DNA from: Cordylochernes scorpioides
Lineage: Eukaryota; Arthropoda; Arachnida; Pseudoscorpiones; Chernetidae
NCBI GenBank assembly: GCA_030710605.1
Contig: CP092863.1
Span: forward strand, 61,983,899 to 62,047,898
Direction: 5' to 3'
DNA: 64,000 bases
In this document: positions 17,257 through 63,755 of the stretch, one piece after another
Layout of the letters: each line of letters opens with the position of its first letter
Position numbering within the stretch: the stretch's first letter is position 1
The notes under the pieces: model-generated
What the model saw: the letters and a program-made list of their open reading frames with translations, nothing else
The model's database searches: none
What the model was told of the DNA's origin: nothing
Translations under genes and position numbers: made by a program

Positions 17257-17466
17257 GGGAAAAGTTTCTTTTAAAAATATTTTTTACTTAAAATTATCTC
17301 AAGCTTTCGGGCAAGTAAGCCCTTCTACGGGAGAAAATATTTTACATCATTAATACGCCAATAAAATAAGATTTAAAATTGAATTTCTCCCGTAGAAGGG
17401 CTTACTTACCCGAAAGCTTGAGAGATTTTTAAATAAAAAAAATATTTTTAAAAGAATCTTTTACCC
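17257..17466. mobile_element. Inverted pair of Penelope-type end repeats
   Basis: Arms 17257-17336 and 17384-17466 are inverted copies. Each contains CCCGTAGAAGGGC...CCCGAAAGCTTG, the same layout as CCTGTCGAAGGGCGG...CCCGAAAGCTTG in the terminal repeat of the intact Penelope element at 57959-62347. The pair lies upstream of a decayed Penelope open frame. This is probably an inverted-junction remnant. Confidence 0.5.
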
Positions 17467-22474: not shown

Positions 22475-25400
22475 TTAGCGGGGGAGCCTGTCGCAGTTTT
22501 CGAAGGAGATCTTCTCCAGCTCCTTGACGGGCAGGTCCTTGGACTTGAGTTCGGAAAGGATCTTCTGGTAGTCCTGCTCACTGAGGTCGTGGAACTTCTC
22601 CTGGTGAATCAGCACGCGCAGTTGGGCTGGAACATACGGGTGTCATCTTAACTTGAACTTGTTTATATTCAAATCATCTTTAATCAGTCACACATACAGG
22701 GCAGCTTCTTGCCCTATTGCGTTTGAATTATAAAAAGAAAGTTAGCTTTTTCAAATAATATTTTTCATTAAAATTCAAGATATTGGATATGACAAGTAAG
22801 GTGAATATATAATGGATAAATTGTAATATCAAAATAAGGCTTATAGTTTATGATATATAATACACTCAACAGATATTATCGGTAGCCACAAACAAAATAT
22901 TCAATAAAAAATAAATTTTAATTATAAAAAATCTATATCAAATTAAAATAATTATTTTCGCTCTAAATAAATATTAATTTAAATTATTTTAATTTTCATT
23001 TCACAGCACATGATTCTCTGCTGCCACCTATTATTCAGTGTTAAAAATGATAGCGTTGTAGTATGATTATATATAGACGATAAAAGCAATACTATAGTAA
23101 GAGGAAGTAAAGACTTACCGGCATAGAGGAGAGGCCTCTCGGTGCAGGCCCACAGGACCATGTGGGACTTGGGTTCGTATTCCACAATCTTGTACTTGAT
23201 GGTGATGGGGGTGGCGTCTGGATATAATTCAAGTCGCTTAGGTTATGATGGTCAAATAATAAATACAGTGAATAATTCTATGATACAATTGAAAAATATA
23301 TATATTCAAGTATTTCCATAATAGAGATTTTTGGTATGCATTTATTTATCCATCAAATCAGACGCGATATCCCTACAAGGGATGCTTGCGTCAATAACAA
23401 CACTAAATTCAGATACTATATTACATCAAAAAAAAAATAATTACAAGATTTAAAAGATAAAAAAGAGGACATTAAATCATTCTTGATTTTACATCACAAC
23501 CAACAAAATAAACAAACCAAAAAATACATATATACAAATATGTAATAATTAGGGTTTTTTTAACCAAGAGAGAAAATCATAGATATATTTACAGATTTTT
23601 CTAAATTTAAAATACGAGTCCTTACTATTTACAAACATAAAAAGATCCTTGTATTCGATGTTTTCCCGGTTTCTGTAGTTCTGGAAGATTGGGCACTCAA
23701 GGAGCAGATGACTGGAATCCTGCTTTCTCTTTCCACATAAACATCCCGGATCGTCTATAGCTCCTATTCGAAACAGAAAATCTCCGAAATTTCCATGACC
23801 AGTAACGAATTGTACATTGTAAAAGTCAGGGCGGAAATATTTTGGAATGCCCAGAGGGAAAAAGAGACGAAAGTGATCATTTGTATTAGAAAACATATCT
23901 TCCATTCTTGTTCTCAAAAATCCTTTTATAATTGAAGGAGAATGTGGACTGAACGTTCGTTGGTCTTCCTCGCTTAGTTGGTCCAATTCATATTTAATCA
24001 ATCTTGATTCGATAAAATCAGTCAGGAATGGGATCTCTGCCAGACAGTGGACACAGTTTGAGGAAGAAGTTTTAAACGATCTAGTAGCCCAAAGAACAAT
24101 TTGGTATTGCATCGAATTTAATTTCTGTTTAGAGCGGTTATTTATTTGGTAAAACCAAATTTCAGCTCCATATGTTAGAATAGGTCTAATTAGCGTCTTA
24201 TACAGAATTAACCTTTTATTAGAGTTTATACCCCATATTTTGCCGCTGAGGGAAAAAAGCAGATTTTTCATGCGCTGCGCCTTATGCAAAATCTCATTGA
24301 TGTGCGGGGTAAAATTTATTTTTGTTTTGAACCTATGATTAGATAATTTCATTCCCAAAATTTTGATTTCATTTGAAGGCTTTATGACGGTTTTTTGAAA
24401 TTTCAGCTGGAACCTATGGAAATTGTGGATGTGAATCAAGTTTGTTTTTTCTGGATTTATTTTTAACTTGTTTGAGCGGCACCATTGAGTGACATAGTTT
24501 AGGGTGTTCACTAACTCAGCTTTTAGACCCTCTAAATTATAATGCCAACATACAATAGAGATGTCGTCCGCGTAGCAAATAATTTCAGCTTTTGTAGATT
24601 TAAAATTCATTAAAATGTCGTTTAGCAAGATGTTCCATAATAACGGAGAAAGTGGACTACCCTGAGGACATTCCTTAGTAAGGTTTTTGGAGACCGTTTT
24701 GCCACCGTAAGACAGACAGACTGTCCTTTTGTTATTCAAATAGGATTGGATGATTTGAATCAGAGAGCTGGGAACGTTGTCTAAATCCATTCTTTTTATT
24801 ATAGCTGGCCACCATGCATGGTTTTATTAAGTTTTTTATTGCAAGTTACCAAACATATTTTTGCTATATAATAGTTAGAGTTATATAGAATTTTTTACTG
24901 AGTAATATATTTTCTATAAACTATTGATAGGATATTGATTCTCTTTGCCCTAGAGACCTAAACATTTTTAGAAAATAAAAATTATTTTTGTTTAAAATAA
25001 TCAAACCATATTTTAATATAACTCACTATCAAAGATATATTTGTATATTTGCATATGGCTTGAGAAATATTCTTTTTTGAAAAGTTGCTTTATGTGTGTG
25101 CCTGTTTTTTTGACACATCACAAGGGCATGATAATAAACCTATTGTTTACTTGGCTGTATCCGAAAATTTATTATTGAACCCATTTAGGTTTTTTGATAA
25201 TAGGATTCTACCAGTACACTACTCTTAATGCGAAAAAAAAGTTTTTTTCCATATATTCTCTTTAGGAGAAATTCCAAGTCATTTTAGATTGAAATTGTTA
25301 TCTTAAATAATGACCTGACTAAATATTTAGATATGTACCTTTTGGGAGGCTTATAATAATTGACCAATATCTTGAGCTGATGGCTTCTATGGAATCACTT

Positions 25401-34166: not shown

Positions 34167-36126
34167 ATATGTATATAAAAAAGCAAAGCCCAATTCTAAA
34201 CCCAAATATTTTTTTTTTATGAGAAGAACATCAACATATTGCATGATTACGGCAGTCTATAGCTTCCCTGACAAAAATTCACCAAAAAAGTTAAATATTC
34301 CAAAATTTTTCTGTGTGTAAATTGCTAAATATGTAAAAAACATGTATACAAAAAAGCAAAGCCCAATTCCAAACCCAAATATTTTTTTTATGAGAAGAAC
34401 ATCAACATAATGCATGATTACGGCAGTCCATAGCTTCCCTGACAAAAATTCACCAAAAAAGTTAAATATTCCAAAATATTTCTGTGTATATATTGCTAAA
34501 TGTGTAAATAACATGTATATAAAAAAGCAAAGCTTAATTTTAAATTTCATTATCCTTTTCACAGGAAAAGCATCAAAATACTGCATAAGTACGGCACTTT
34601 TGCAGCCCCCCTGACAAAAATTCACTAAAAGAGTTAAGTATTCAAAAAAATATTTTGGTATATATATTGCTAAATGTGTAACAAACATGTTTATAAAAAA
34701 GCAAAGCTTAATTCTAAGTTTTAATATTTTTTTTTATAAGAAAAGCTACAAAAGCAAATAGGGAGAAGTGGGGCCATTTAGCCATTTTCAAAATTTGATT
34801 ATGAAAGAGTAAATAAATGAATAAATAAGGACAAATATAAAGAGAAAGTATTGCTAAATGTGTAACAAACATGTCTATAAAAAGGAAATGCCTAATTCTA
34901 AGTTTCAATTTTTTTTATATAAGAAAAGCTACAAAAGCAAATAGGGAGAAGTGGGGCCATTTAGCCATTTTCAAAATCTGATTGTGAAAGAGTAAAAAAA
35001 ATGAGTAAATAAGAGCAAATATAAAGAGAAAGTATTGCTAAATGTGTAACAAACATGTCTATAAAAAAGCAATGCTTAATTCTAAGTTTTAATATATTTT
35101 TTTTAATAAAAGCTACAAGAGCAAATAGGGAGAAGTGGGGCTATTTAGCCATTTTCAAAATTTGATTGTGAAAGAGTAAATAAATGAATAAATAAGGACA
35201 AATATAAAGAGAAAGTATTGCTAAATGTGTAACAAACATGTCTATAAAAAAAGCAATGCCTAATTCTAAGTTTTAATTTTTTTTTATAAGAAAAGCTACA
35301 AAAGCAAATAGGGAGAAGTGGTGCCATTTAGCCATTTTCAAAATCTGATTGTGAAAGAGTAAAAAAATGAGTAAATAAGAGCAAAGATAAAGAAAAAGTA
35401 TTGCTAAATGTGTAATAAACATGTATATAAAAAAGCAAAGCTTAATTCTAAGTTTTAATATAAAGAAGAAATAAGACACAAAAATGGAGCTAAATTCAAA
35501 TGAAAAACTATAACAAATTAATTAAAAAAAATAAGACCTAATCCAAATGTCACCATCATCAGACAAAAGAAAAAATGAGATTTTATTCTTTAGTTCATTT
35601 ATTATTTTGTCTGATGCTGTTGCTGAAACGTCACACACTATTAAATTATTTGGATTAGGTCTTATTAATGAGAAAAAAAAGATGCCAAAGAGAGATGAAA
35701 AGATGCCAAAAAAGATAACCAGATACAAAAATTGTGCTAAATTCAAATGAAAAATTTATTATAGAATAAAAGTAATAATTCAATCTACAATTCGAAATAT
35801 TTATATATTTAAATGAAAAACTATAACAAAGTACTTACATAATCAAATGAATCAGAAATATATATTGTTTCAAAACACATTTTTACGCATTTCAAAACAA
35901 AGGAATTGATGATGATAAATGCAAAAAATCTACGATTGTAAAATAGATTAAATTAAAAAATAAAAATAACTGTTAACATTAGGAAAATAAAAACAGGCCT
36001 ATCATACGAAGAAAAAAATAACGAAAATTTTGGTATATAGATTGTTATGTGTAGTTCAGAATCTTCGGAGGAGATAGCTCAGGACTTTACAATGGAAAAC
36101 TCTGTTACGGTATTATCTATATAGAT
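34167..36126. repeat. Left arm of a 5.4-kb inverted repeat
   Basis: The arm is the inverse of 37751-39531. It holds a tandem array with units beginning TTGCTAAATGTGTAAC at 34322, 34493, 34668, 34851, 35035, 35218 and 35401: the first two intervals are 171-175 bp, the later ones 183 bp. Beyond the array is non-repeated sequence ending CTATATAGAT. It is non-coding; all open frames here are low-complexity. Confidence 0.85.
35611..35632 (+). ncRNA. Hammerhead-like motif, left arm
   Basis: CTGATG, a short CTGTTG/CTG region and GAAACGTC follow in the order of the hammerhead core but with a poor stem II. It is bracketed by a 19-bp inverted pair (AAGACCTAATCCAAAT at 35531-35548 and its inverse at 35647-35667). 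The mirrored copy is at 38273-38294. Confidence 0.35.
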
Positions 36127-37750
36127 ATATATTTCAACTCAAGCAAATACAATATTTTTTCAAATATCTAATATTATTCCTTCAATTTGAAATGAATTTA
36201 GAAATGGATGCTTTTTGGGAAATTATAGTGGAAAATTTTCTTAGCTTCTCCTACTCTCTATATATATCTATCATACTAATTATGTCCAAGAAGTGTAAAG
36301 ACACTTCCATATAAATATATAATCAAATCGAATATTTTCCGCCTTTATGAATTCACTATTACAACTCATTTGGAATTGAGTCTTCAATTTTGAAAAAAAA
36401 AATATTACTGATCGTAATAGAATAAAAATTACAAATTTATTTTTCTATTGAAATCATCTCTTTAGGGTTAGAATAGAAAACTGTTAAAATAGTTATTATC
36501 ATTTATTGGCATTAATAGTTAATATGTACTTTAACTTAATACACTCATGGACAAAACTTTTAAAAAAATTTGTATCTTTTATCATGTGTATCAGGATTCA
36601 GACAATAACTCGGAAAGATATTTTAAACACAGTGAAATGTATTGATGAAACACGAGATAACCAAGTATGAACAAATTTGCGTCTGTTTCCTTTAATAAAA
36701 ATAGACGACCTGCGATATCAAAATATGAAACTTTCTCAAGTTTTGTTGATGAGTGTACATAAAAAATAGAACAACAAGTACGAATTTTCCTTTATCGAGT
36801 AAAACAAACTTTATCCTCCTTACTGCGATGAAAAATTCAAAAGAGCAGGGCTCATCAGTAGGGACTCTTCTAGCGATTTCATCAATTTAATTTACCAGAT
36901 CATATTGAGCGATGTTTCAGAAAATATTTCCTGCTGTCTGGACCTCGCAAAATGCAACTTCGAACTGTTTCATCATGTGCAAAAAGATGAAAGTGGAGAT
37001 ATTTTCTGAGATGAAGACCTTTTTACAGTTTGGGATGACGAATGTACTTCTGATCTCTGGAAGAAAGTATAATATGGTTGGTTTCGAATGATGAAGAAGT
37101 GTATTGAATGTGTGGGTGGTAAGAATTTTGAAACATTGAAAAAATAAACTCGTATTATAAACCTTTATTATGTCGCCATTTTCATATTGAAAATTTTCTT
37201 TCATTCTTCATATAGTTTATTCCTTCAAAAGTAAATATGAAATGTAACGTAAAGCAAATATGAAAATTAAACCCTCAACTCGCACACACATTACCATCTA
37301 ATAGAAAAAAAGCAATACCAGCGCATCTGGTATTGGAAGCTTACTATAAACAAAAGCATCAATAGATCTATAGATTATACTAACCTAAATATGATAATAT
37401 AATTTCGGAATCTCCCACTTAAGTAATTTCTGTCTTTCCAACACAGTTCATACACTTATATACCCAGCTATTAATATTTATTTGGTGTATTTGATCTCAA
37501 TATGATTTGTATCCTTCATAATCATGCATAGTCTCAATAACGCATTAAAATCAACTAGTAATCCATTGTTTTATGATTTAAAAGTATTAAGTTAATTAGT
37601 ATTCTCATATCAATCTATCACATTTCCCTACTTCTTTGTATGTATCACAATTTTACTTTTTCGAAGGTCTGTTACACTGGAAAGCTTGTATGGTGGCCAA
37701 AGTAAACAAGCCTAAAATCTCACTACGCCAGCACATGGCCAGGTTATTCC
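36127..37750. other. Spacer between the inverted-repeat arms
   Basis: No gene. It contains a Tc1-type MITE (listed separately) and, at about 37260-37600, the tail of a decayed Penelope element matching 21710-21960 and 45310-45720 (AATACCAGCGCATCTGGTAT, then TATTTGGTGTATTTGATCTC). A 95-codon minus-strand frame at 36917-37204 has no recognised motif. Confidence 0.55.
36542..36755. mobile_element. Tc1-like MITE
   Basis: The ends CACTCATGGACAAAACTT and the inverse AAGTTTTGTTGATGAGTG are imperfect TIRs of 18 bp, flanked by TA on both sides. It is 214 bp and non-coding. The CATGGACAAAAC terminus is typical of Tc1-family elements. Confidence 0.7.
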
Positions 37751-39531
37751 ATCTATATAGATAATACTGTAACAGAGTTTTCCATTGTAAAGTCCTGAGC
37801 TATCTCCTTCGAAGATTCTGAACTACACATAACAATCTATATACCAAATATTTCGTTATTTTTTTCTTCGTATGATAGGCCTGTTTTTATTTTCCTAATG
37901 TTAACAGTTATTTTATTTTTTAATTTAATCTATTTTACAATCGTAGATTTTTTGCATTTATCATCATCAATTCATTTGTTTTGAAATGCGTAAAAATGTG
38001 TTTTGAAATAATATATATTTCTTGATTATGATTATAATTTGTAAGTACTTTGTTATAGTTTTTCATTTAAATATATAAATTTTTCGAATTGTAGATTGCA
38101 TTATTACTTTTATTCTATAATAATTATCTTTTATAAGTGTTTGTTATAGTTTTTCATTTGAATTTAGCACAATTTTTGTATCTGGTTATCTTTTTTGGCA
38201 TCTTTTCATCTCTCTTTGGCATCTTTTTTTTTCTCATTAATAAAACCTAATCCAAATAATTTAATAGTGTGTGACGTTTCAGCAACAGCATCAGACAAAA
38301 GAATAAATGAACTAAAGAATAAAATCTCATTTTTTCTTTTGTCTGTAGCTCTTTTTTTTTTATTAATTTGTTATAGTTTTTCATTTGAATTTAGCTCCAT
38401 TTTTGTGTCTTATTTCTTCTTTATATTAAAACTTAGAATTAAGCTTTGCTTTTTTATATACATGTTTATTACACATTTGGCAATACTTTTTCTTTATATT
38501 TGCTCTTATTTACTCATTTTTCTACTTTTTCACAATCAGATTTTGAAAATGGCTAAATGGCCCCACTTCTCCCTATTTGCTTTTGTAGCTTTTCTTATAA
38601 AAAAAATTAAAACTTAGAATTTGGCATTGCTTTTTTATAGACATGTTTGTTACACATTTAGCAATACTTTCTCTTTATATTTGTCCTTATTTATTCATTT
38701 ATTTACTCTTTCACAATCAAATTTTAAAAATGGCTAAATGGCCCCACTTCTCCCTATTTGCTTTTGTAGCTTTTATTTAAAAAAATATATATTAAAACTT
38801 AGAATTAAGCATTGCTTTTTTATATACATGTTTGTTACACTTTAGCAATACTTTCTCTTTATATCTGTCCTTATTTATTAATTTATTTACTCTTTCATAA
38901 TCAAATTTTGAAAATGGCTAAATGGCCCCACTTCTCCCTATTTGCTTTTGTGGCTTTTCTTATAAAAAAAATATTAAAACTTAGAATTAAGCTTTGCTTT
39001 TTTATATACATGTTTGTTACACATTTAGCAATATATATACCAAAATATATTTTTGAATACTTAACTCTTTTAGTGAATTTTTGTCAGGGGGGCTGCAAAA
39101 GTGCCGTACTTATGCAGTATTTTGATGCTTTTCCTGTGAAAAGGATAATGAAATTTAAAATTAAGCTTTGCTTTTTTATATACATGTTATTTACACATTT
39201 AGCAATATATACACAGAAATATTTTGGAATATTTAACTTTTTTGGTGAATTTTTGTCAGGGAAGCTATGGACTGCCGTAATCATGCATTATGTTGATGTT
39301 CTTCTCATAAAAAAAAATATTTGGGTTTGGAATTGGGCTTTGCTTTTTTGTATACATGTTTTTTACATATTTAGCAATTTACACACAGAAAAATTTTGGA
39401 ATATTTAACTTTCTTGGTGAATTTTTGTCAGGGAAGCTATGGACTGCCGTAATCATGCAATATGTTGATGTTCTTCTCATAAAAAAAAATATTTGGGTTT
39501 AGAATTGGGCTTTGCTTTTTTATATACATAT
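37751..39531. repeat. Right arm of the 5.4-kb inverted repeat
   Basis: The inverse of 34167-36126. Array units have their GCAA landmark at 38479, 38661, 38845, 39028, 39202 and 39374, so this arm has one fewer 183-bp unit than the left arm. It abuts the Helitron Q2 terminus at 39534. Confidence 0.85.
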
Positions 39532-39533
39532 AA

Positions 39534-42500
39534 ATAGCCGAGTGACCCTGGCAACGACCCAGGTTTACCCGAAGGACCCGCAGGTGAGAAACTATAGAAG
39601 AAAAATTTTAACAAATCAGAAAATGAAAGTGCAAACAACAGAACTACACTACTTTAAGGACATGAGAGCACATGCACAGTATCACCACACGTGTACCATT
39701 TTCAAAGACCCTGCTTAGGAATAAAACTTCTCAGAAGCATAACAATAGCACCAACCTAGAGTTTAACTGGTGTGGATGCATTCCTCTGGGAGTAAGACTA
39801 TTGAGAAATTCAGTAGGGGGTTATTTTGCTTCTCCGCATTCTAACACTCCAACTGTTAACACTGAGGAAACACTGACTCATGTTTGGTAAGCAATTTCAG
39901 GGAAGAAACTATAGACATTGGATTAAATAAATTATTAAATAAATTGCATTAAATAAAAATTATCAGATTTAAATAAATATTATTAGAGTGAAAAAAAAAA
40001 AGAAAAAATTAACAAATTAGAAAATAAAATTTTGAACAATACAACTATATTGCAGATAAGATAAGAGGACCTTATTAAAAAATAAATAAACAAACTGCAA
40101 TTCGACACTATCGATAATTCGACACTATCGATAATTCGACACTTTCGATAATTCGACCATTTTAAAAATCAATTTTTCAAGGTTGATTGTTGTTTAAATA
40201 CAACTTTACCGGTAAAAAGGTATTACAGAGGCGAAGGCAGCCACTTTAAAATTAAACACAGGCTCTTGTAGGAAGAACCCAAATATTCAGAATGAATGGA
40301 AGTCTGAAATCTGAAGGACCTAAAGATATGGGTCATCTTTACATGTATACTATCCAATGTTCGCACACTTGAAAAAGCCACTTAAAGTTGTCCGTGCGTA
40401 AACACAGGCTCTTGTAGCCAAGGTTTGTCCTTGAGCCTTATTTATAGTCATAGCAAAAGCCAACCTTAGTGAAAACTAACGCCTCTCTAGAATGAAGCGA
40501 AGGTTGGTACCTGAAGGGGCCAAAGATATTTCAGACACTATACAGTGTGTTCAACTTTGGGCACTGTCAGTATATGTGCTTCGAACAATACAACTATATT
40601 GCAGATAAGATAAGAGGACCTTATTAAAAAATAAATAAACAAACTGCAATTCGACACTATCGATAATTCGACACTATCGATAATTCGACACTTTCGATAA
40701 TTCGACACTTTCGATAATTCGACCATTTTAAAAATCAAATTTTCAAGGTTGATTGTTGTTTAAATACAACTTTACCGGTAAAAAGGTATTACAGAGGCGA
40801 AGGCAGCCACTTTAAAATTAAACACAGGCTCTTGTAGGAAGAACCCAAATATTCAGAATGAATGGAAGTCTGAAATCTGAAGGACCAAAAGATATGGGTC
40901 ATCTTTACATGTATGCTATCCAATGTTCGCACACTTGAAAAAGCCACTTAAAGTTGTCCGTGCGTAAACACAGGCTCTTGTAGCCAAGGTTTGTCCTTGA
41001 GCCTTATTTATAGTCATAGCAAAAGCCAACCTTAGTGAAAACTAACGCCTCTCTAGAATGAAGCGAAGGTTGGTATCCGAAGGGGCCAAAGATATTTCAG
41101 ACACTATACAGTGTGTTCAACTTTGGGCACTGTCAGTATATGTGCTTCGAACAATACAACTATATTGCAGATAAGATAAGAGGACCTTATTAAAAAATAA
41201 ATAAACAAACTGCAATTCGACACTATCGATAATTCGACACTATCGATAATTCGACACTTTCGATAATTCGACACTTTCGATAATTCGACCATTTTAAAAA
41301 TCAAATTTTCAAGGTTGATTGTTGTTTAAATACAACTTTACCGGTAAAAAGGTATTACAGAGGCGAAGGCAGCCACTTTAAAATTAAACACAGGCTCTTG
41401 TAGGAAGAACCCAAATATTCAGAATGAATGGAAGTCTGAAATCTGAAGGACCAAAAGATATGGGTCATCTTTACATGTATGCTATCCAATGTTCGCACAC
41501 TTGAAAAAGCCACTTAAAGTTGTCCGTGCGTAAACACAGGCTCTTGTAGCCAAGGTTTGTCCTTGAGCCTTATTTATAGTCATAGCAAAAGCCAACCTTA
41601 GTGAAAACTAACGCCTCCCTAGAATGAAGCGAAGGTTGGTATCCGAAGGGGCCAAAGATATTTCAGACACTATACAGTGTGTTCAACTTTGGGCACTGTC
41701 AGTATATGTGCTTCGAACAATACAACTATATTGTAGATAAGATAAGAGGACCTCATTAAAAAATAAATAAACAAACTGCAATTCGACACTATCGATAATT
41801 CGACACTATCGATAATTCGACACTTTCGATAATTCGACACTTTCGATAATTCGACCATTTTAAAAATCAATTTTTCAAGGTTGTTTGTTTTGTTTAAATA
41901 CAACTTTACCGGTAAAAAGGTATTACAGAGGCGAAGGCAGCCACTTTAAAATTAAACACAGGCTCTTGTAGGAAGAACCCAAATATTCAGAATGAATGGA
42001 AGTCTGAAATCTGAAGGACCAAAAGATATGGGTCATCTTTACATGTATGCTATCCAATGTTCGCACACTTGAAAAAGCCACTTAAAGTTGTCCGTGCGTA
42101 AACACAGGCTCTTGTAGCCAAGGTTTGTCCTTGAGCCTTATTTATAGTCATAGCAAAAGCCAACCTTAGTGAAAACTAACGCCTCTCTAGAATGAAGCGA
42201 AGGTTGGTATCCGAAGGGGCCAAAGATATTTCAGACACTATACAGTGTGTTCAACTTTGGGAACTGTCAGTATATGTGCTTCGAACAATACAACTATATT
42301 GTAGATAAGATAAGAGGACCTTATTAAAAAATAAATAAACAAACTGCAATTCGACACTATCGATAATTCGACACTATCGATAATTCGACACTTTCGATAA
42401 TTCGACACTTTCGATAATTCGACCATTTTAAAAATCAAATTTTCAAGGTTGATTGTTGTTTAAATACAACTTTACCGGTAAAAAGGTATTACAGAGGCGA

Positions 42501-43527
42501 AGGCAGCCACTTTAAAATTAAACACAGGCTCTTGTAGGAAGAACCCAAATATTCAGAATGAATGGAAGTCTGAAATCTGAAGGACCAAAATATATGGGTC
42601 ATCTTTACATGTATGCTATCCAATGTTCGCACACTTGAAAAAGCCACTTAAAGTTGTCCGTGCGTAAACACAGGCTCTTGTAGCCAAGGTTTGTCCTTGA
42701 GCCTTATTTATAGTCATAGCAAAAGCCAACCTTAGTGAAAACTAACGCCTCTCTAGAATGAAGCGAAGGTTGGTATCCGAAGGGGCCAAAGATATTTCAG
42801 ACACTATACAGTGTGTTCAACTTTGGGCACTGTCAAAATATGTGCTTCGAACAATACAACTATATTGCAGATAAGATAAAAGGACCTTATTAAAAAATAA
42901 ATAAACAAACTTCAATTCGACACTATCGATAATTCGACACTATCGATAATTCGACACTTTCGATAATTCGACACTTTCGATAATTCGACCATTTTAAAAA
43001 TCAAATTTTCAAGGTTGATTGTTGTTTAAATACAACTTTACCGGTAAAAAGGTATTACAGAGGCGAAGGCAGCCACTTTAAAATTAAACACAGGCTCTTG
43101 TAGGAAGAACCCAAATATTCAGAATGAATGGAAGTCTGAAATCTGAAGGACCAAAAGATATGGGTCATCTTTACATGTATGCTATCCAATGTTCGCACAC
43201 TTGAAAAAGCCACTTAAAGTTGTCCGTGCGTAAACACAGGCTCTTGTAGCCAAGGTTTGTCCTTGAGCCTTATTTATAGTCATAGCAAAAGCCAACCTTA
43301 GTGAAAACTAACGCCTTTCTAGAATGAAGCGAAGGTTGGTATCCGAAGGGGCCAAAGATATTTCAGACACTATACAGTGTGTTCAACTTTGGGCACTGTC
43401 AGTATATGTGCTTCAAGGACATGAGAGCACATGCGCTGAAACACCATACGTGTTCGATCGCAAAGATCCTAAAGGCATTGGTGAAAGTCTAAATAAATAT
43501 TTTGGAAATAAAAAAAATATATATATA
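39534..43527 (-). mobile_element. Helitron Q2 carrying a 566-bp satellite-like array
   Basis: The 3' end on the minus strand has the hairpin (CTGGGTCGTTGCCAGGG) and a degraded CTAT terminus near 39534. It continues through 39600-40030, homologous to Q1 with a 130-bp extra segment near 39757-39880. The interior is almost entirely the tandem array. The 5' end probably lies at the (TA)n around 43515-43527. Confidence 0.55.
40034..43415. repeat. 566-bp tandem repeat, six units
   Basis: Landmark GAACAATACAACTATATTG recurs at about 40034, 40583, 41149, 41715, 42283 and 42848; the first unit is shorter. Units differ by roughly 1%. Each contains a 17-bp minisatellite (GACACTATCGATAATTC, three or four copies), then AACACAGGCTCTTGTAG twice and a CAGTGTGTTCAACTTTGG block. 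The repeated 66-codon minus-strand frame is only a consequence of the array. Confidence 0.92.
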
Positions 43528-46100: not shown

Positions 46101-46171
46101 CCATTGGTGGTTCAGTGGTAGAATGCTCGCCTGCCACGCGGGCGGCCCGGGTTCGATTCCCGGCCGATGCA
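46101..46171 (+). tRNA. tRNA-Gly (GCC)
   Basis: 71 nt with every arm visible: D arm GGTTCAGTGGTAGA (A box), anticodon stem CTCGC/GCGGG with loop CTGCCAC (anticodon GCC), T arm CCGGGTTCGATTCCCGG (perfect B box) and acceptor 3' side CCGATGC plus A. The only defect is position 1, C instead of G, which leaves a C-C mismatch at the top of the acceptor stem. There is a T run after the gene. It is probably a gene or a very recent copy. It is not attached to SINE body sequence. Confidence 0.85.
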
Positions 46172-46435: not shown

Positions 46436-46458
46436 TCTACAATATTGATTAAAATGTT

Positions 46459-46560
46459 TATATGTTCTTTTCATCTACGAATTCACATAGCTGTCCGATG
46501 CCACCAAATTTTCTTTCCCTATAATCCCGAAAAATTGGGCATTCCATAAATAAATTGTTT
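46459..46560 (-). pseudogene. LINE tail fragment in the 3' flank of gene D
   Basis: The minus-strand translation reads FMECPIFRDYRERKFGGIGQ then LCEFVDEKNI and a stop, matching LLECPIFQNYRNRENIEYKD in the LINE of intron 3 of gene C. Only the last ~30 codons remain. A near-identical fragment is at 57789-57890. Confidence 0.6.
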
Positions 46561-47100
46561 AAAAATGTATTACTTAGTGTCTATAGTTCAAAATTCATGC
46601 ACAACATAGGTGTAGGAAAAAAAACGAGTGTTTGAGTTTCCTAATCAAATTTTATCAAGTTCAAAAGCTTCTTTTTTATCTATTTAATCTCTTCCTTTTA
46701 AATGAATTACCATTCTCCAAATCTATCAATAAAAAAGTCTCTATTTATCTTATGCAAGGGTAAATTCAGGAATTTATAAACATAATTCTTTGTCTGGTAT
46801 TAGAATATTTGTAAAGGTTTTCTCTCATTACCTCAGAGAAATAGGGAAATATTTATTGTTGGAACTAAAAAACCTCTTCTTCATAAAATTATATTTTATA
46901 TTTCATTACACACACAAACTTTATTTGCCCGGTTAATTTTTAAAAAATCATTTTTTGGTTTATGTATTTAATAATTTTTGAAAATAGTTTAATGACTCCT
47001 TAACAATAGGTTGTTGTCACATTTGTGTAGTAGGTGTTTAAAGAAAATTGAGATATGACTCGAGGTTATATGCTAGTGGAGTTTATTTGTACGTCTCTCC

Positions 47101-50100
47101 TTAGCGGGGAAGTCTGTCGCAGTTTTCGAAGGAGATCTTCTCCAGCTCTTTGACAGGAAGGTCCTTGGACTTGAGTTCGGAAATGATCTTCTGGTAGTCC
47201 TGCTCACTGAGGTCGTGGAACTTCTCCTGGTGAATCAGCACGCGCAGTTGGGCTGGAACACACGGGTGTCATTTCTACATCTATCTGTTTATATATTTTC
47301 AAGAATAAAAATAATCTTTTTCGGTCAATACAACTTCTTTGCTGTATTGAGATTGAACTAATAAAAAAGGAAGTTTTTTCAAATAATATTTTAAATAATA
47401 TCCACGATATTTAAAAGGACAAAGAATGTAAATATTTGATAGATACATTGAATTCTCAAATATATACTTGTAGTTTTTAATACACACTTTACAGATATTA
47501 TTGGCAGCCAAACAATATATAAAGAAATTGAGAGGAATATATAATAATAAAAAACTCATAGCAATCTAAAGTTCATACAGTAGAACCTCCATGTAAAGAA
47601 AATCTATTTGCAGAACCAAAGTGTCCTTAAGGGAGAAGTGTCCTCTTACCGGAGAGTTGCTAAATTGTAAAAATAGTAATTTTGCAAATAAAAGGAGAGG
47701 TGTCCGCTAGCTGGATGCCTGATATAGGGAGGTTCTACTGTATATATTTATATTCTTTTTTGATTACCATTTCACAGCACGAGGGCTTCTCTGCTACCAC
47801 CTATTATCTGGTGTTATAAATGATAGCGATGTAGTAATAAATTATTGATTATGGGCGATAATAGCAATACTATAGTAGGAAGAAGTGTGGATTTACCGGC
47901 GTAAAGGAGAGGCCTCTCGGTGCAGGCCCACAGGACCATGTGGGACTTGGGCTCGTATTCCACAATCTTGTACTTGATGGTGATGGGGGTGGCGTCTGGA
48001 CATAATTTTAGTCACTTTGGTTATGATAGTCAAATATAAAAGAGAGTAGAAGCACTATAATACAATTGAAGAAAAGTTATTGAATATTTTCATTGTAGAT
48101 TTTGATATATATATATAGTATGATTATGCATTTCATTAGTGTTAAAACAAAGAACTTTTTCAATATAATACAGTAGTGAGCGATACCATGAATTCTTTCA
48201 ATAAAATAGTGAGCTATAAAGAATTTCACCATTTGATATATTTTTATACCAAAATATTAATGCTTCGCCTAAGTGACTTTAAAAATTTCAGAAAATCAAT
48301 TTTGTCAAAATTTGTCAATATAATCGCATCATATTCTAGGGTAACTCATTAAGATAATCAAACAAATTATTGCATATTTTCATTTTGCTTAACAAATATT
48401 TTGTTTTAAAGAATTCTTTGTATGTGTGTTCCTGTTTTTTTTTTTTATACTCCATAAACGCATGATAACAACTCTAACGTATATATATACTTAGTTGTAT
48501 CTGAAAATATCAATTATTAAACATACTTAGGTTTCTTAATAAAAAATATCTACCAGCACTACTACATTCAAATTGGTTTTAAAAATATAAACCATCTGGA
48601 AGAATTTTCAAGTCATTTTAGATAGAAAAATTGTTATCTTAAATAGGATCTGGAATAGTAAATTTATAGTTAAATACCTTCGTAAGCATATAACCATTGA
48701 TCAATGTCTAGGGTTGTTTGGCTTCTATGGAATATCACTCAGAAATCTGAATTACTCGAATTTTACTTGTTTCGGGGTAGCAAGCCCAAAATTTTACATA
48801 TTTATAAAGTTTGCTAGAATACTTCTGTTTAGGATATGCATTTATGAATGTTATTTGATTATGGAATCTCCTAAGAGTTCATCATCTCCATTGAAAAGAG
48901 ACACTTTAAAATAATCAGAGCGATAACCCAGCAGAACCTACAGTCACGAGAATATTCAGGGTGATTGTCCAGGTGAACACGGAGGTTTTTGTTGAGCTTG
49001 AAGTAGGGGAGCTTCTCATCGACGAGGGTACCATTGGCCTCGACTCTCATCGGAGCACTGAGGCAAACATTGAACATTCTGAGTACATCTTCAGGGATAG
49101 TGGAATGAAGTTTGTTCATCAAGGATATGTAATATACATATTAAACTTATGATATATATTTGTAGTTCAATATTTCATTTAGAGAGATCATATATTTTAT
49201 TTTTTCCAATGTAAATTATATACTTTATTTTAAGTGTCTGAGAATAATTTGAATAGAGAAAATGTTCTTCTGATGTCTAAACAGATTCTAAAATTTAATT
49301 GAATCTCAAACAAGATAATTTTGTTACTGAATAATCAATTTTTTGCATCTAATAGAAAATATTATATTAAAATATTAATAATTATTAATTATATATTGAA
49401 AATATTTAAAGGATGTATACATGTTTCAAAATTTTTGGCGTGAGTCAACTATACAAACTTACTCGAAAGCCTGACCATAGGAGTAGAAGTTGAGCTTGTT
49501 GGAGCCCATGGTGGTGATGTTGTTGACCAGACAGCGGACATCTTCGATGAAGTCATAGGTGGTGTGGGCATACTCGAACCATTGGGCGTCGAGCTACAAT
49601 ACCGCACAACCCCATGTTATAAAATACTCCAATAACAGAAGTAATCATCTTACAGTAATTATATTTAGAGAAGTCACTATATTACACTTTAGAAACTATC
49701 GAATATGAAGGTATTCTGCTAATTTAACTTTAGAAACTATAATATTGAAATATTCCAACTCTCATTTTACTTTAGATATAACAATATTGAGAGAGTTCAC
49801 CTCATTTTCACTTTAAAAATTAAAAAACCGGAAATTCTCTATAATGATTTATTAAAAGGCGCCAATATTAGAAAAGAGCTAATCATATTTCACTTTAAAA
49901 ATAACAACACTTAACAATATTCTGAAGATTATTTGTTAGTTAGAAGTTGATTCAGAAAAAAATATAGTGACATCAACCAAAGATTTATTCAACCGCCGAC
50001 GTTTCAGTGACTTGCAGTTACTCTCACATTCTCCTGAGAAGAGTGATTTTTTTTTATCTCCGCGAAATATTTATAAAGCTTATGTGAGAGAAACTATACC

Positions 50101-56990: not shown

Positions 56991-57788
56991 GTCTTCTTAA
57001 TATCGAAATATGATCTGTATTTTGTGTGTGAAATGTTTTGGGTAATTCAAAATGAGTATCTTGGCATATGTTCGGCAAATTCTACTGATTTTGAATTTTT
57101 TAATCATTTATCAGGTTTACATATTCTATTAATAGAGCAATTTTCGAATTTTAAAGAAAATATATATAATATCGCTGAGAGATCCCTCTCTGTAAATATT
57201 TTTCATTTCATATATATCATGAAATAATTTTGTTTATTAATTTTATTAACATCCTATAACGCGATATCCAAAACTCATGGATATTTGAGTCAATACATTT
57301 ATTTACATCATAACAAATTGGCTATATAAAAGGAGAAAGGATAAAGGTTAAGGAAAAATAGACAAACGTACAAAAGCAATTCTATCAAAATTTCCTTCGG
57401 GAAACAGTTCAAAAAATAGTTGTATATATATTATATAATCTAAAATACAAATATTTTATTTTTTTAAAAACATATATTTCATTTTCATTCATTGACTGTT
57501 ATATATTTTGACCATAGATTCAAAACATACCACTTTAATTGTTGTAAATATGTATAGTTAACCCTACCTTTTTTTTAATTCACGATTATAGAATTCATTT
57601 TATAAATTCTATATTACTGTGATAAATAATTTTATGTGTATTTTTAATTCAAGTAATTCAAAATAAAATCTACTTGAAAGGTAAATAATTATCTTTACTT
57701 TTTACGACTTCACCTCTTTTCAACAACAAAACACAAAAATAATTCTAACACAACATATGTATCTACGAAATTTATTAATATTTGTATA
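56991..57788. other. Intergenic AT-rich DNA
   Basis: No gene or element was recognised. The segment 57000-57080 (TGAAATGTTTTGGGTAATTC...) resembles 45900-45965, so it is probably shared repeat flank. Confidence 0.4.
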
Positions 57789-57890
57789 TGTTCTTTTCTC
57801 ATCTACGAATTCATGTAGCTGTCCGATGCCACCAAATTTTCTTTCCCTATAATCCCGAAAAATTGGGCATTCCATAAGTAGATTGTTTTA
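57789..57890 (-). pseudogene. LINE tail fragment in the 3' flank of gene E
   Basis: Nearly identical to 46459-46560 (ECPIFRDYRERKFGGIGQ). The shared insertion marks the flank of E as a duplicate of the flank of D. Confidence 0.6.
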
Positions 57891-58028
57891 AAATGTATTA
57901 CTTAGTGTCTATAGTTCATTAGTGTATGCACAACATAGGTGTAGGAAAAAAAACGAGTAATTAATAGGTAATCCCATAATATTATATTCAAATCAATAGG
58001 CTTGAGGGATAAGTCTCTTTTAAATACA

Positions 58029-58067
58029 TTTATTTCAAGCTTTCGGGCTCAACCGCCCTTCGACAGG
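58029..58067 (-). ncRNA. Hammerhead-like motif in the Penelope pseudo-LTR
   Basis: On the minus strand CCTGTCGA, then GGGC...GCCC as stem II, then GAAAGC and a TTGAAATAAA tail. The order is that of a hammerhead, but CTGTCGA departs from CTGANGA at a core residue, so activity is doubtful. The same sequence occurs at 60683-60721 (minus) and 62266-62304 (plus). Confidence 0.4.
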
Positions 58068-58227
58068 AAAAATTATATTATATACTAAAGTTTTCAGATC
58101 CACAATCTAAACATAAATTTAAATTTGTGAGACGCCTGTGTCTCGAGGCTTGCCGCGGGAGGGGGTGAGATCTTTGAAAAAGATTGCCGTTTAGCCCATT
58201 GAAATATTATTTAATGAATCGCAGAGT

Positions 58228-60645
58228 TCATGATACCGAGGGGGGTGTGGTGGCTGCAGGGAATATTACATTGTAAATTTCAGGTAAATCAATTTTTCTA
58301 TTGAGGCTATGTAATTTGCTTGATAGGATAGATTCAATGATAAGTCTTTGGTGTTTGTTGGCAATATTGGAATAGTGAATTTTCGGTGATGTAATGTTAA
58401 AGGAATGGCCAGTTTCGTTTATGTGCTGTACTATTAAGGATCTATGGTCTAAGTTATCAATATTTCTTTTGTGTTCATGAATTCTAATATTGACTTGTCT
58501 CCCGGTTTCGCCTACGTAGACTTTTGGGCAGTTCAAACATTCTATGGAGTAAATAGCGTTTCTTGGTGTGCTGCTAGGTTCATTGAGTTTCATGATCTGG
58601 TTTCGGAGAAGGGATCCAGAGGTAGGTGCGCAGGTGAAATAGGTTTTGATTCCAAATTTCAATAAGAATCTCGCTATTGTGGAGGATAATGGTGAATATG
58701 GCATATTGCAGATAGATCTGTATATTGGAGACTGTGTCTTTTTAGTTGGGCCATAAAAGTGTCGCAATATAAAGGATATCGGGTATGCGCAGTCCCTGAG
58801 GTTAGCTAATATGTTCTGTGTTTCGAGGTTCTTGTACATCTGGAGGGAGCAGTGGGTATGGACTCGTTTTGATAGAGCAATGACTGTGTTGATTTTGTGA
58901 CTGATAGGACAGAAGGACGAGTATTGAACATAATTAGGACGGAAGGATGGTTTATAATAAACGGTGGTGTGCAATTCATGTTGATGCCGGATGATTTTAA
59001 CGTCGAGAAATGGAAGGGTATTATTGGTTTCTTTTTCAACAGTAAAGTGAAGATCAGGGTGATAATTGTTTAGATTGTAGAGGATGTCATCGGTTTTTGT
59101 GGTGGTGCAAATGCAAAAGATGTCATCGATGTACCTGCGCCAAAAGAATATATCATTGGGGAAATTGGCGGTAATCTTTCGGTCTATTGCGCGCATAGAG
59201 ATCTCTGCAATTGTGGTCGATAGAGGGCTTCCCATTGGGGACCCTTTTGCTTGCCTGAATGATTCGGAGTTATATGTGAATATGCAGTTATCTAGACATA
59301 TGGAAATTAGTTGTGTGATTTTTTGGATGATATCTGTATCAATATGCTGTTCCTGCAGAAGTTCTATTGTATCAATTATGATCAGAGGATGTGGAAGGCT
59401 GGGGTATAAGGCTTGCACGTCAAAAGACACCATGATGCGGTCAGATTCAGGTTTGATCTTTAGTACTTCTCCTATAAAGGTTTGGGTGTTGGATATGGGG
59501 AATGGGTCATTCTGTAATTGGAGGAACGGTTTTAGGAAGTTGGCTATAAATCTGGAAAGAGGGGCTGTTGGAGAAGAGAAAAAGGCCACTATAGGACGCA
59601 ATGGAGTTTCAGGTTTGTGTGTTTTTGGGAGACCATAAATATAGGGCTCATTGTGTGGGCTGGACAGGTTAGATAGGAATTCTTTAAGTTCATCGTCTGA
59701 GATCTTGTGGTCGGTATTCATCTTTTTCAGTTCTTTTTTGAATGATTTATAAGCAGATTTTTTATCACTTTCGGATATGGGATAGAAAGCGGTTCGGTCT
59801 TCTAGGATTTTGAGCATTTTGCTGTTATAGTCTGATCGATTAAGGATAACTGTCTGTCCTCCTTTGTCCGCTTGGGTGATGACGATTTCTTTTTTGTTGC
59901 TAAGGTATTGCAACAATTTCCGTTCATGAGGGTTGTAAAGGGGGAGATTGGGAGGTGACACTATTAAATTGGTGACTTTGTTTCGTATAATGTTTTTTTC
60001 CTGTAGATTGAGTCTGGTAATGGCTGATTCGATTCCACTTATAATTCTAATGGGGTCTGGTTTCTGGACTGTTCTATATTTCATTCCTTTTGCTAGTAAG
60101 ATTTCTTCGTCTAATGATAAGGTGGCATTCGACAGGTTCATTATAGCGCTTGTTATGTTCCGTGGGTTCAGTTTTGGACATTTATATTTGCGGGCCCAAT
60201 GTTCCAGTTTTTTGTGGTGCTTGGTCGTAATCTCTGTCTTTAAAGAAAGCACTTCTGAGGTGATATGTGTCACCATCTCGTACATTCTCTGAGGTGGCAC
60301 TACTTGAGAGGTGAGGAAAATTAATTCTTTGATGGTTTTGGAAAGAATACGGATATGAGAATAACATCCCTGTGTTCTGCATCTTAAAAGTTTCATTTGA
60401 GTGTCTTTGATTACTTTGTAGGAGAATGGGTTCTTCACTGGGTCCTTAATTCTCAGAGGCGGTGGGATGAAATTTAACTCTTCACACCTGCGATTGAAGG
60501 CAAGGTGGCATCTCCATTTGGTGAGCTGGATGGACTTTTTCCGGATCTGCTGAAGATAATAGTGGATATCTCTATCCGAAAACATATGATTCATGCTAAA
60601 ACTTTGGTTAACAATTAATAGGTAATCCCATAATATTATATTCAA
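58228..60645 (-). CDS. Penelope-like element protein (reverse transcriptase + GIY-YIG endonuclease)
   Basis: 805 codons, uninterrupted. Residues ~330-640 form the reverse transcriptase: YIYGLPKTHKPETPLRPIVA, VSFDVQALYPSLP, QAKGSPMGSPLSTTIAEISM and the catalytic YIDD at 505-508. Residues ~698-775 form the GIY-YIG nuclease: a zinc-type CLNC at 703-706, IYS...VYVGETG, RIHEHKRN and a closing glutamate near 771. The enzyme class primes reverse transcription at a nick made by GIY-YIG. The first ~11 residues are encoded in the pseudo-LTR, and a later Met (MNHMFSDRD) is an equally good start. With all motifs intact it may still be competent. It has no intron. Confidence 0.93.
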   Translation of the reverse strand: MNIILWDYLLIVNQSFSMNHMFSDRDIHYYLQQIRKKSIQLTKWRCHLAFNRRCEELNFIPPPLRIKDPVKNPFSYKVIKDTQMKLLRCRTQGCYSHIRILSKTIKELIFLTSQVVPPQRMYEMVTHITSEVLSLKTEITTKHHKKLEHWARKYKCPKLNPRNITSAIMNLSNATLSLDEEILLAKGMKYRTVQKPDPIRIISGIESAITRLNLQEKNIIRNKVTNLIVSPPNLPLYNPHERKLLQYLSNKKEIVITQADKGGQTVILNRSDYNSKMLKILEDRTAFYPISESDKKSAYKSFKKELKKMNTDHKISDDELKEFLSNLSSPHNEPYIYGLPKTHKPETPLRPIVAFFSSPTAPLSRFIANFLKPFLQLQNDPFPISNTQTFIGEVLKIKPESDRIMVSFDVQALYPSLPHPLIIIDTIELLQEQHIDTDIIQKITQLISICLDNCIFTYNSESFRQAKGSPMGSPLSTTIAEISMRAIDRKITANFPNDIFFWRRYIDDIFCICTTTKTDDILYNLNNYHPDLHFTVEKETNNTLPFLDVKIIRHQHELHTTVYYKPSFRPNYVQYSSFCPISHKINTVIALSKRVHTHCSLQMYKNLETQNILANLRDCAYPISFILRHFYGPTKKTQSPIYRSICNMPYSPLSSTIARFLLKFGIKTYFTCAPTSGSLLRNQIMKLNEPSSTPRNAIYSIECLNCPKVYVGETGRQVNIRIHEHKRNIDNLDHRSLIVQHINETGHSFNITSPKIHYSNIANKHQRLIIESILSSKLHSLNRKIDLPEIYNVIFPAATTPPSVS

Positions 60646-60997
60646 ATCAATAGGCTTGAGGGATAAGTCTCTTTTAAATACATTTATTTCAAGCTTTCGG
60701 GCTCAACCGCCCTTCGACAGGAAAAATTATATTATATACTAAAGTTTTCAGATCCACAATCTAAACATAAATTTAAATTTGTGAGACGCCTGTGTCTCGA
60801 GGCTTGCCGCGGGAGGGGGTGAGATCTTTGAAAAAGATTGCCGTTTAGCCCATTGAAATATTATTTAATGAATCGCAGAGTTCATGATACCGAGGGGGGT
60901 GTGGTGGCTGCAGGGAATATTACATTGTAAATTTCAGGTAAATCAATTTTTCTATTGAGGCTATGTAATTTGCTTGATAGGATAGATTCAATGATAA

Positions 60998-62105
60998 ATA
61001 TATCATCCAAAAAATCACACAACTAATTTCCATATGTCTAGATAACTGCATATTCACATATAACTCCGAATCATTCAGGCAAGCAAAAGGGTCCCCAATG
61101 GGAAGCCCTCTATCGACCACAATTGCAGAGATCTCTATGCGCGCAATAGACCGAAAGATTACCGCCAATTTCCCCAATGATATATTCTTTTGGCGCAGGT
61201 ACATCGATGACATCTTTTGCATTTGCACCACCACAAAAACCGATGACATCCTCTACAATCTAAACAATTATCACCCTGATCTTCACTTTACTGTTGAAAA
61301 AGAAACCAATAATACCCTTCCATTTCTCGACGTTAAAATCATCCGGCATCAACATGAATTGCACACCACCGTTTATTATAAACCATCCTTCCGTCCCAAT
61401 TATGTTCAATACTCGTCCTTCTGTCCTATCAGTCACAAAATCAACACAGTCATTGCTCTATCAAAACGAGTCCATACCCACTGCTCCCTCCAGATGTACA
61501 AGAACCTCGAAACACAGAACATATTAGCTAACCTCAGGGACTGCGCATACCCGATATCCTTTATATTGCGACACTTTTATGACCCAACTAAAAAGACACA
61601 GTCTCCAATATACAGATCTATCTGCAATATGCCATATTCACCATTATCCTCCACAATAGCGAGATTCTTATTGAAATTTGGAATCAAAACCTATTTCACC
61701 TGCGCACCTACCTCTGGATCCCTTCTCCGAAACCAGATCATGAAACTCAATGAACCTAGCAGCACACCAAGAAACGCTATTTACTCCATAGAATGTTTGA
61801 ACTGCCCAAAAGTCTACGTAGGCGAAACCGGGAGACAAGTCAATATTAGAATTCATGAACACAAAAGAAATATTGATAACTTAGACCATAGATCCTTAAT
61901 AGTACAGCACATAAACGAAACTGGCCATTCCTTTAACATTACATCACCGAAAATTCACTATTCCAATATTGCCAACAAACACCAAAGACTTATCATTGAA
62001 TCTATCCTATCAAGCAAATTACATAGCCTCAATAGAAAAATTGATTTACCTGAAATTTACAATGTAATATTCCCTGCAGCCACCACACCCCCCTCGGTAT
62101 CATGA
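60998..62105 (+). pseudogene. Penelope-like element, 5'-truncated inverted copy
   Basis: The frame of 335 codons from 61098 corresponds to residues 471-805 of the neighbouring full protein and is identical except for about one residue (G to D in RHFYDPTKK). The copy begins mid-RT at the junction near 60998 (equivalent to position 59334 of the other strand), so it lacks the amino-terminal half but keeps YIDD and the whole GIY-YIG domain. Confidence 0.9.
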
Positions 62106-62847
62106 ACTCTGCGATTCATTAAATAATATTTCAAGGGGCTAAACGGCAATCTTTTTCAAAGATCTCACCCCCTCCCGCGGCAAGCCTCGAGACACAGGCG
62201 TCTCACAAATTTAAATTTATGTTTAGATTGTGGATCTGAAAACTTTAGTATATAATATAATTTTTCCTGTCGAAGGGCGGTTGAGCCCGAAAGCTTGAAA
62301 TAAATGTATTTAAAAGAGACTTATCCCTCAAGCCTATTGATTTGAATAAAAAAAACGAGTGTTTGGGTTTCCTAATCAAATTTTATCAAGTGTCAAAAGC
62401 TTATTTTTTATCTATTTGATCTTTTCTATTTAAATGAATTACCATTCTCCAGATCTATTAAATATACGAGTCTTTATTTTAGGAAATTATTTTTTTCAGT
62501 TAACTGCAAGGGTAAATTCAGGAATTTATAAACATAATTCTTTGTCTGGTATTAGAATATTTGTGAAGGTTTTCTCTCATTACCTCAGAGAAATAGAGAA
62601 ATATTTATTGTTGGAACTAAAAAACTCTTCTTCATAAAAATATATGTTTATATTTCAGACACACACAAACTCTATTTGCCCGGTTGATTTTTAAATAATC
62701 ATTATTTGGTTTATGTATTTAATAATTTTTAAAAATAGTTTATTGAATCCTTGACAATAAGTTGTTGTGACCCTTGTGTAGTAAGTGTCAAGAAAATTAA
62801 GATATAACTCGAGGTTATATGCTAGTGGAGTTTATTTGTACATCTTT

Positions 62848-63755
62848 TTAGCGGGGAAGCCTGTCGCAGTTTTCGAAGGAGATCTTCTCCAGCTCCTTGA
62901 CGGGCAGGTCCTTGGACTTGAGTTCGGAAATGATCTTCTGGTAGTCCTGCTCACTGAGGTCGTGGAACTTCTCCTGGTGAATCAGCACGCGCAGTTGGGC
63001 TGGAACACACGGGTGTCATCTCAACTTGAACTGGTTTATATTAACAAATACAAAAATAATATTTTTCAGTCGAGAAAGCTTCTTTTCCGTATTGCGATTT
63101 AACTAGTAAAAAAGAAAGTTTTTCGACCACTATTTTTATTAAAATCCATCATATTTAAAATGACAGGAAATGTGAATATTTTATGGATACATTCTATTTT
63201 CAAATATATACTTGTAGTTTGTAACAGTTTTAACAGAAATTATTGGCAGCCAAACAACATATAAAGCAATTGAGAGGAATATATAATAATAAAAAAACTC
63301 ATAACAATTCAAAGTATATATAGTTGAACCTCCCTTTAAAAGAAATCTAATTACAGAGCCAAAGTGTCCTTTAGGGAGAGGTATCCTCTTACCGGAGAGT
63401 GGCTAAATTGTAAAAAAAAAAGTAATTTTGCAAATAAAAACTGTCCTTTGTGGAGAGGTGTCCGCTAGCTGGATGTCCGATATAGGGAGGTTCTACTGTA
63501 TATATATTTATATTCTTTTTTGATTACCATTTCACAGCACAAGGGCTTCTCTGCTACCACCTATTATCTGGTGTTATAAATTATAGCGATGTAGTAATAC
63601 ATTTTTAATTATGGGCGATAAAAGTAATACTATAGTAAGAGGAAATAAAGACTTACCGGCGTAGAGGAGAGGCCTCTCGGTACAGGCCCACAGGACCATA
63701 TGGGACTTGGGTTCGTATTCCACAATCTTGTACTTGATGGTGATAGGGGTGGCGT
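62848..63755 (-). CDS. ApoD-like secreted lipocalin, gene E (exons 4-5; continues past the window)
   Basis: Exon 5 is 62848-62999 and exon 4 is 63657-63755, with the same phases and lengths (152 and 99 nt) as B-D. Exon 4 encodes ATPITIKYKIVEYEPKSHMV and LWACTERPLLYA; exon 5 ends FENCDRLPR and the stop, followed by AATAAA (62831-62836). Exons 1-3 lie beyond 64000. The sequence is open and spliced normally, so the gene is probably intact. Intron 4 has the same MITE as gene D, making D its closest relative here. Confidence 0.88.
63320..63498. mobile_element. MITE in intron 4 of gene E, allelic to the one in D
   Basis: The right end GGAGGTTCTACTG and interior GTGTCCTTTAGGGAGAGGTA match 47578-47740. 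The left terminus has lost its first base or two (TAGTTGAACCTCCC). The position relative to exons 4 and 5 is the same in both genes. Confidence 0.7.

Follow-up and report, generated by a model that had tools for sequence, protein, structure and literature searches.

Genes D and E of the gene cluster in the window (the whole 64-kb stretch of DNA that was analysed) have homologous 3′ flanks, and the flank of E is interrupted by an insert of 4389 bp (4.39 kb). The features of both flanks are collected in Table 1. The approximate five-exon host protein matched no Pfam family up to an E value of 10, and its one relative among solved structures was found at chance level (E = 0.77); its lipocalin-like look is only an impression. 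A tRNA-Gly (GCC) at 46101–46171 lies directly left of the D flank, and a very similar tRNA sequence, judged by eye, adjoins the L029/L065 insertion described below.

The first-pass annotation had proposed that the D flank matches that of E on both sides of the Penelope insert, and that the string AAAAAAAACGAGT is single in D and double in E. The alignments confirm the homology, with 90.9% identity to the left (D 46436–46629 against E 57762–57958, 197 columns) and 87.5% to the right (E 62361–62859 against D 46630–47112), or 87.8% between D 46617–47030 and E 62348–62781. A string search of the window found AAAAAAAACGAGT once in D and twice in E. The shorter string AAAAAAACGAGT occurs on the + strand of the 64-kb window only at these three places, and a search of the − strand of the same window gave zero matches. 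When the two E pieces were joined with a single 13-mer, they fitted D with zero gap at the join. The homologous flank had been delimited too narrowly, at 46459–46645: it reaches leftward to 46436 and rightward past 47112, into the terminal exon. The insertion point stands to within one base, and the proposed 13-bp target duplication is better given as 12 or 13 bp, because the first A of the right 13-mer may be coded by the element (the short end of the element usually finishes ...GAACA, and that of the window copy ...GAATA). D is the pre-integration (empty) site, and E the filled one.

Table 1. Features of the empty flank of gene D, the filled flank of gene E and the insert (window coordinates; PLE, Penelope-like element).
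Feature	Position	Strand	Basis
D 3′ flank, left part (empty-site paralogue)	46436–46616		90.9% identity to E 57762–57958, target included
LINE tail, dispersed repeat within the left D flank	about 46459–46560		genome matches
Unduplicated target AAAAAAAACGAGT in D	46617–46629		string search, six-flank alignment
D 3′ flank, right part, into the terminal exon of gene D (gene on − strand)	46630–47112		87.5% identity to E
E 3′ flank, left part	57762–57945		alignment to D and other paralogues
Left target-site duplication in E	57946–57958		string search
Complete PLE unit of 2654 bp, with its long (tailed) outer end at 57959	57959–60612	−	arm comparison
PLE open reading frame	58228–60645	−	ORF list, Pfam scan
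5′-truncated tandem partial copy (pLTR), 385 bp	60613–60997	−	identical to 57959–58343
Inverted 5′-truncated second arm of ~1.35 kb, with a short (untailed) outer end	60998–62347	+	self-comparison
Right target-site duplication in E; first A possibly element-coded	62348–62360		string search
E 3′ flank, right part	62361–62859		alignment to D and other paralogues

Structure of the insert in gene E

Judged from its sequence, the insert has the architecture of a canonical Penelope-like element (PLE), a known kind of element. Its self-comparison reveals a 385-bp identical direct repeat and a 1.36-kb inverted repeat, and the second arm differs from the first at 3 positions in 1325 columns. The reading frame encodes 788 aa from its first ATG (60594), or 805 aa from a TTG at 60645 that falls in the tandem piece, upstream of this ATG. 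The tail lies about 18–46 nt before the first ATG, and the frame is open further upstream. A Pfam scan of a 793-aa piece of the frame (58228–60609) detected a reverse transcriptase (RT) domain (PF00078, E = 2.4e-10, 40.9 bits for a cut-off of 29.6). The signal for a GIY-YIG domain (PF01541) is weak, and lies below the Pfam cut-off of 22.6 bits both in the 793-aa piece (E = 0.0031, 18.2 bits) and in the last 156 aa alone (E = 0.00053, 20.7 bits); a motif AIY..YVGETG was read by eye in the frame. Three solved reverse transcriptases match the PLE RT only at an E value of about 0.001.

A search of 57900–62400 for hammerhead ribozymes returned no Rfam hammerhead family up to an E value of 5; a CTGTCGA-GGGC-loop-GCCC-GAAA stretch recurs, by eye, across the aligned arms. 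Elsewhere in the window, a 66-bp stretch (17282–17347) resembles the PLE pLTR, at 74% similarity, in the region of its conserved CTGTCGA/GAAA motif, and possibly belongs to another PLE family.

Paralogous flanks and the age of the insertion

The D sequence from 46459 to 46629 (171 bp) was used as a query against the genome (2.62 Gb in 24 contigs), where the best 40 of 868 candidates were scored. Among these 40, 34 matches lie outside the cluster and cover only the first 91 to 123 query bases. Since the matches outside the cluster share only the start of the query, 46459–46560 is read as a dispersed LINE tail. The 6 matches in the gene cluster cover the full 171-bp query and define six paralogous flanks, D, E, F, G, H and I. 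The F, G, H and I flanks were taken as 1001-bp pieces and analysed with D and E in one alignment and tree. In this six-flank alignment, D and F differ at 7 of 806 positions (0.9%), E and G at 14 of 796 (1.8%), D and E at 71 of 843 (8.4%), and H and I at 0 of 796. The tree groups D with F and E with G as sisters, and all three of its inner branches are supported at 99/99 or above. The H and I flanks (C1 62095970–62096970, L071, and 62159770–62160770, L072) show no difference in 998 bp and lie 64 kb apart; either they were duplicated very recently or the assembly contains the stretch twice. The window copy B matches only the flank right of the target (7438–7839, 66.5%), and no LINE tail was detected in this copy.

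The insert is present in one of the six flanks, that of E alone. The target is uninterrupted in D, F, G, H and I, and PLE remnants are not visible at the target of these five empty paralogues in the six-flank alignment. G has lost one C of the target, the F and H/I targets carry changes in the A run, and the exact 13-mer is common to D and E and absent from F and G. Leftward, D/F homology passes the limit of D/E homology (98.5% over 400 columns) and so does E/G homology (96.0% over 405 columns); it is therefore probable that the D-E block had already been copied to F-G when the PLE entered E. The best history would thus probably start with the LINE tail, followed by the duplications that gave the D and E types (and H/I), the copying of D-E to F-G, and the insertion of the PLE in E alone.

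The order put forward in the first-pass annotation, with the LINE tail before the gene duplication and the PLE last, is borne out by the genome matches and the paralogue tree. Its dating of the PLE by the D/E duplication keeps its direction, the PLE being the later, and loses its claim to name the closest event, which is the E/G split (1.8%). The tightest age bound for the PLE comes from G, not from D, despite the C that G has lost. As the arms of the insert are only 0.23% apart (3/1325) compared to 1.8% for E and G, the insert appears younger than the E/G split. The four further paralogues thus improve the dating of the insertion in E, and the locus is a clean natural experiment, with six paralogues of which one is filled at an age between the E/G split and the present.

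Outer ends of the PLE copies in the genome

The genome was searched with a 673-bp probe that represents the terminal part of the frame. With the best 40 of 2370 candidates scored, this gave a lower bound of at least 43 matches, all those listed being 99–100% identical and 40 of them of full or nearly full probe length. The 20 loci that scored best with this probe were taken. Fifteen are head-to-head pairs with their 3′ ends pointing outward, and five are one-armed (L009, L010, L013, L016 and L021). One of the latter (L010, 3151–4450, on C16) lies within a copy of window positions 57593–57680, left of E, and by eye some 30 bp of its target are missing rather than duplicated.

In total 31 two-armed insertions were collected: the window copy, 15 of the 20 loci, L029, L030 and 13 pairs of end pieces. 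Twelve partnerless single end pieces (L047–L050 and L061–L068) enter no pair count. A distant PLE family also occurs in the genome; the pair counts are for the family of the window copy. Outer ends were called by an anchor match, and both ends were resolved in 28 of the 31. Outside this count are L033/034 (the right arm stops inside the element), L053/054 (the left end was not located) and L029, which is short/long by BLAST limits alone (2637 and 2653). All 28 resolved pairs have one short end and one long end. The short end is ...GATTTGAACA, and the long end carries about 25 nt more, finishing ...TATTAAT. If the 28 long and 28 short ends were paired at random, such an outcome would have P = 3.5e-8. 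In 12 pairs the left end is the long one, in 16 the right end. By simple matching into the reference tail, short ends match over 1–12 nt and long ends over 27–39 nt, so that the classes do not overlap; the long ends of four pairs with a variant tail (L051/052, L055/056, L057/058 and L059/060) match over 19 nt, where an indel stops the count. The extra tail matches at short ends are taken as a resemblance of the target, and the short ends are not perfectly fixed. The automatic classifier called L039/040 long on both sides; this call was rejected, as it probably stems from a flank CCTATTC one mismatch away from the search string. No rule emerged as to which arm is longer in the 17 two-armed insertions that were read whole: the long-end and the short-end arm each exceed the other in 8 cases, and L015 is a tie. 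The element itself being of a known kind, this strict pairing of its ends is the interesting part.

The longest run shared by the two flanks outside the element is at least 11 nt in 26 of the 28 pairs, and 10 and 6 nt in the remaining two; L045/046 has only 6–7 target bases in common. These runs are mostly 11–14 nt long (26/28). Left and right flanks of the same element that were deliberately mismatched reach 11 nt in 3 of 756 combinations. The 28 shared target strings are all different, and the 28 insertions are therefore separate events. L025 and L048, and likewise L029 and L065, agree in their flanks, over runs of 85 and 102 nt, respectively; these are later duplications of a filled site, and L048 and L065 enter no pair count. 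Next to the short end, AA occupies positions +2 and +3 at 17 of 27 ends against a background of 0.147 (p = 1.4e-8; 27 of the 28 short ends with a loose classifier, AA being counted whether or not it derives from the target). In the aligned duplications, A is found at position 2 in 17 of 21 and at position 3 in 17 of 21. The target AA resembles the RNA past the start site (...AACA UAA...), a likeness that would amount to a short, telomerase-like complementarity.

Private variants, defined as absent from all other covering arms, are common to both arms in 12 of 14 testable insertions, compared to 8 of 409 pairs of arms from different insertions. When plain distances are compared, the sister arm is strictly the nearest in only 8 of 15 insertions (L014 and L030 left aside); the family is young, with many copies almost the same. 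Gene conversion between arms could be another cause of their likeness. The central junctions were read in 15 insertions (without L014 and L024). The arms abut or leave at most 20 nt between exact matches, and, as raw counts, 1–3 nt are shared at 9 of the 15 junctions and none at 6, the overlap being measured by exact extension halting at any mismatch to the references. In L014, non-PLE sequence lies between the arms (6320–6700), and by eye part of it is inverted beside both; this looks like upstream host sequence from a read-through transcript, copied into both arms.

Mode of insertion and its alternatives

We consider it probable that a young PLE entered E after the E/G split, in one two-armed event primed from both cut strands. 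The target of the window PLE is A-rich. In the proposed mechanism the PLE endonuclease would cut the two target strands about 12 nt apart, leaving a 3′ stagger, and each 3′ end would then serve as primer for the reverse transcription of PLE RNA that stems from a single source copy. The distal start site, beyond the tail, would be used by one cDNA; the other cDNA would start some 25 nt more internally, ahead of the tail. Each would be either 5′-truncated or run on into a tandem unit. End joining would unite the two cDNAs mid-insert, and fill-in of the stagger would produce the target duplication. The empty sites, the duplication, the outward 3′ ends, the single end of each type and the private variants common to the arms can be read in the genomic sequence itself; the staggered double cut, the double priming, their coupling and the joining we infer, as well as the template, be it a single RNA used two times or a pair of RNAs of the same source. 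The genome-wide PLE copies suggest an RNA copied twice, once per cut strand.

Priming from both target strands on the element RNA is familiar from the twin priming of human L1, where it results in an inversion. The second start of L1 takes a variable internal position, whereas here it is recurrent and lies ~25 nt away, and both outer ends are 3′ ends.

A closer parallel is PAc, the Poseidon element of Anolis carolinensis. The purified PAc protein cuts and extends both target strands, reverse transcription starts at two adjacent internal sites of the RNA whose interval is the tail, and PLE targets are preferentially A+T-rich (PMC11167929). The window PLE resembles PAc in the two probable start sites that bound the tail, in the probable use of both strands and in the A+T-rich targets, and its tail borders correspond to the two PAc start sites. 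However, the common start of PAc is 111–118 nt into the frame, whereas the tail here precedes the first ATG; the PAc starts are described as non-homologous to the target, whereas AA is found here at 17 of 27 short ends; and PAc showed no start-site difference between strands in vitro, whereas every resolved insertion here uses both sites (PMC11167929). The one-of-each rule is thus seen here in genomic ends, and the lizard enzyme in vitro showed no such strand difference. PAc RNA also requires the first 172 nt of the frame (PMC11167929). If the same need holds, the window copy's own transcript would lack this segment beyond the outer end, because the outer 3′ end stops at the tail.

The PLEs of Adineta vaga are likewise similar. 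Pen2a_Av and its relatives have a single RT/GIY-YIG frame, pLTRs and an adjacent inverted pLTR, Pen2a_Av has a 9-bp target duplication, an optional 31-bp tail occurs at one inverted pLTR, and an empty site on an allelic scaffold proved one insertion, with an 8-bp duplication (PMC3846280). The window PLE likewise has a single frame, with an RT and a possible GIY-YIG domain, and shares the pLTRs, inverted copy, short duplication and optional tail. It differs in its inverted arm of ~1.35 kb, in empty sites that are paralogues rather than alleles, in shared target runs of mostly 11–14 nt for its family compared to 9 bp for Pen2a_Av, and in the pairing of tailed and untailed ends, here counted across 28 insertions (PMC3846280). 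In a limited survey of the PLE literature, including part of PMC12910113, we found no earlier statement of a strict rule of one tailed and one untailed end, and we regard the rule as a sharpening of the optional tail at one inverted pLTR (PMC3846280).

Several other origins of the two arms were weighed. A single cDNA, or an antisense template, could prime itself by snapping back, the second arm then being copied from the first, as put forward for the head-to-head repeats of A. vaga PLEs (PMC3846280). This would give the arms of one insertion their common private variants and could leave 1–3 nt in common at the junctions. However, a copied arm should end like its template, and this is contradicted by the unlike ends of all 28 resolved pairs, which recur at the same two positions, the long one being sometimes left and sometimes right; we therefore hold snap-back to be unlikely. 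It is very improbable that one element came in first and another later entered it or landed next to it. Head-to-head pairs could in principle be nested, and the preference of PLEs for A+T-rich targets (PMC11167929) would favour repeated entry, but one target run of at least 11 nt surrounds both arms in 26 of 28 cases, the 28 target strings are mutually different, the arms abut or lie within 20 nt at 15 junctions, and private variants are common to both arms.

The age of the insertion, in turn, would lose its support from D if D had once carried the element and lost it, by precise excision or by conversion with an empty paralogue. Gene conversion is possible in a cluster whose paralogues differ by 1–2%, and the exact 13-mer is present in D and E, not in F and G. 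Such a loss nevertheless has very little probability, as the target runs on without a break in five of six paralogues, with no PLE remnants visible in the alignment, and the insert (0.23% between arms) is younger than the E/G split (1.8%). Least probable of all is an artefact of assembly, with a palindrome or a missing insert misassembled. Large inverted repeats do assemble poorly, and H and I do not differ in 998 bp of flank, but 3 bases and the type of end distinguish one arm from the other, and 28 sites, each with its own target string, show this architecture.

Within the preferred two-strand priming, the one-of-each rule fits the two start sites of PAc if every insertion uses both, one per strand. 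We tentatively suggest, with slightly less than even confidence, that PLE insertion is an obligatorily coupled two-site reaction in which a dimeric particle provides one RNA site for each nicked strand, and, just as tentatively, that the same RNA region, of one RNA or of two from one source, is copied twice. If so, insertion would normally yield a head-to-head palindrome in which only one of the two ends is tailed, the PLE tail would be the spacing between two start sites in use, and the likeness of target AA to RNA UAA would aid a telomerase-like alignment at the short end. As a statistical rule, the pairing of ends bears on how telomerase-related PLEs insert and why they do so in inverted pairs.

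Other repeats were observed in the window. A 413-aa reverse transcriptase frame (PF00078, E = 7e-20), non-LTR-like by eye, lies at 23549–24790. Many inverted repeat pairs, 82–98% complementary, are found at 34178–39521 between arrays of ~170–184-bp tandem units, and a tandem array at 40031–43321 consists of six units of ~566 bp that are 99–100% alike over a 300-bp part of the unit.
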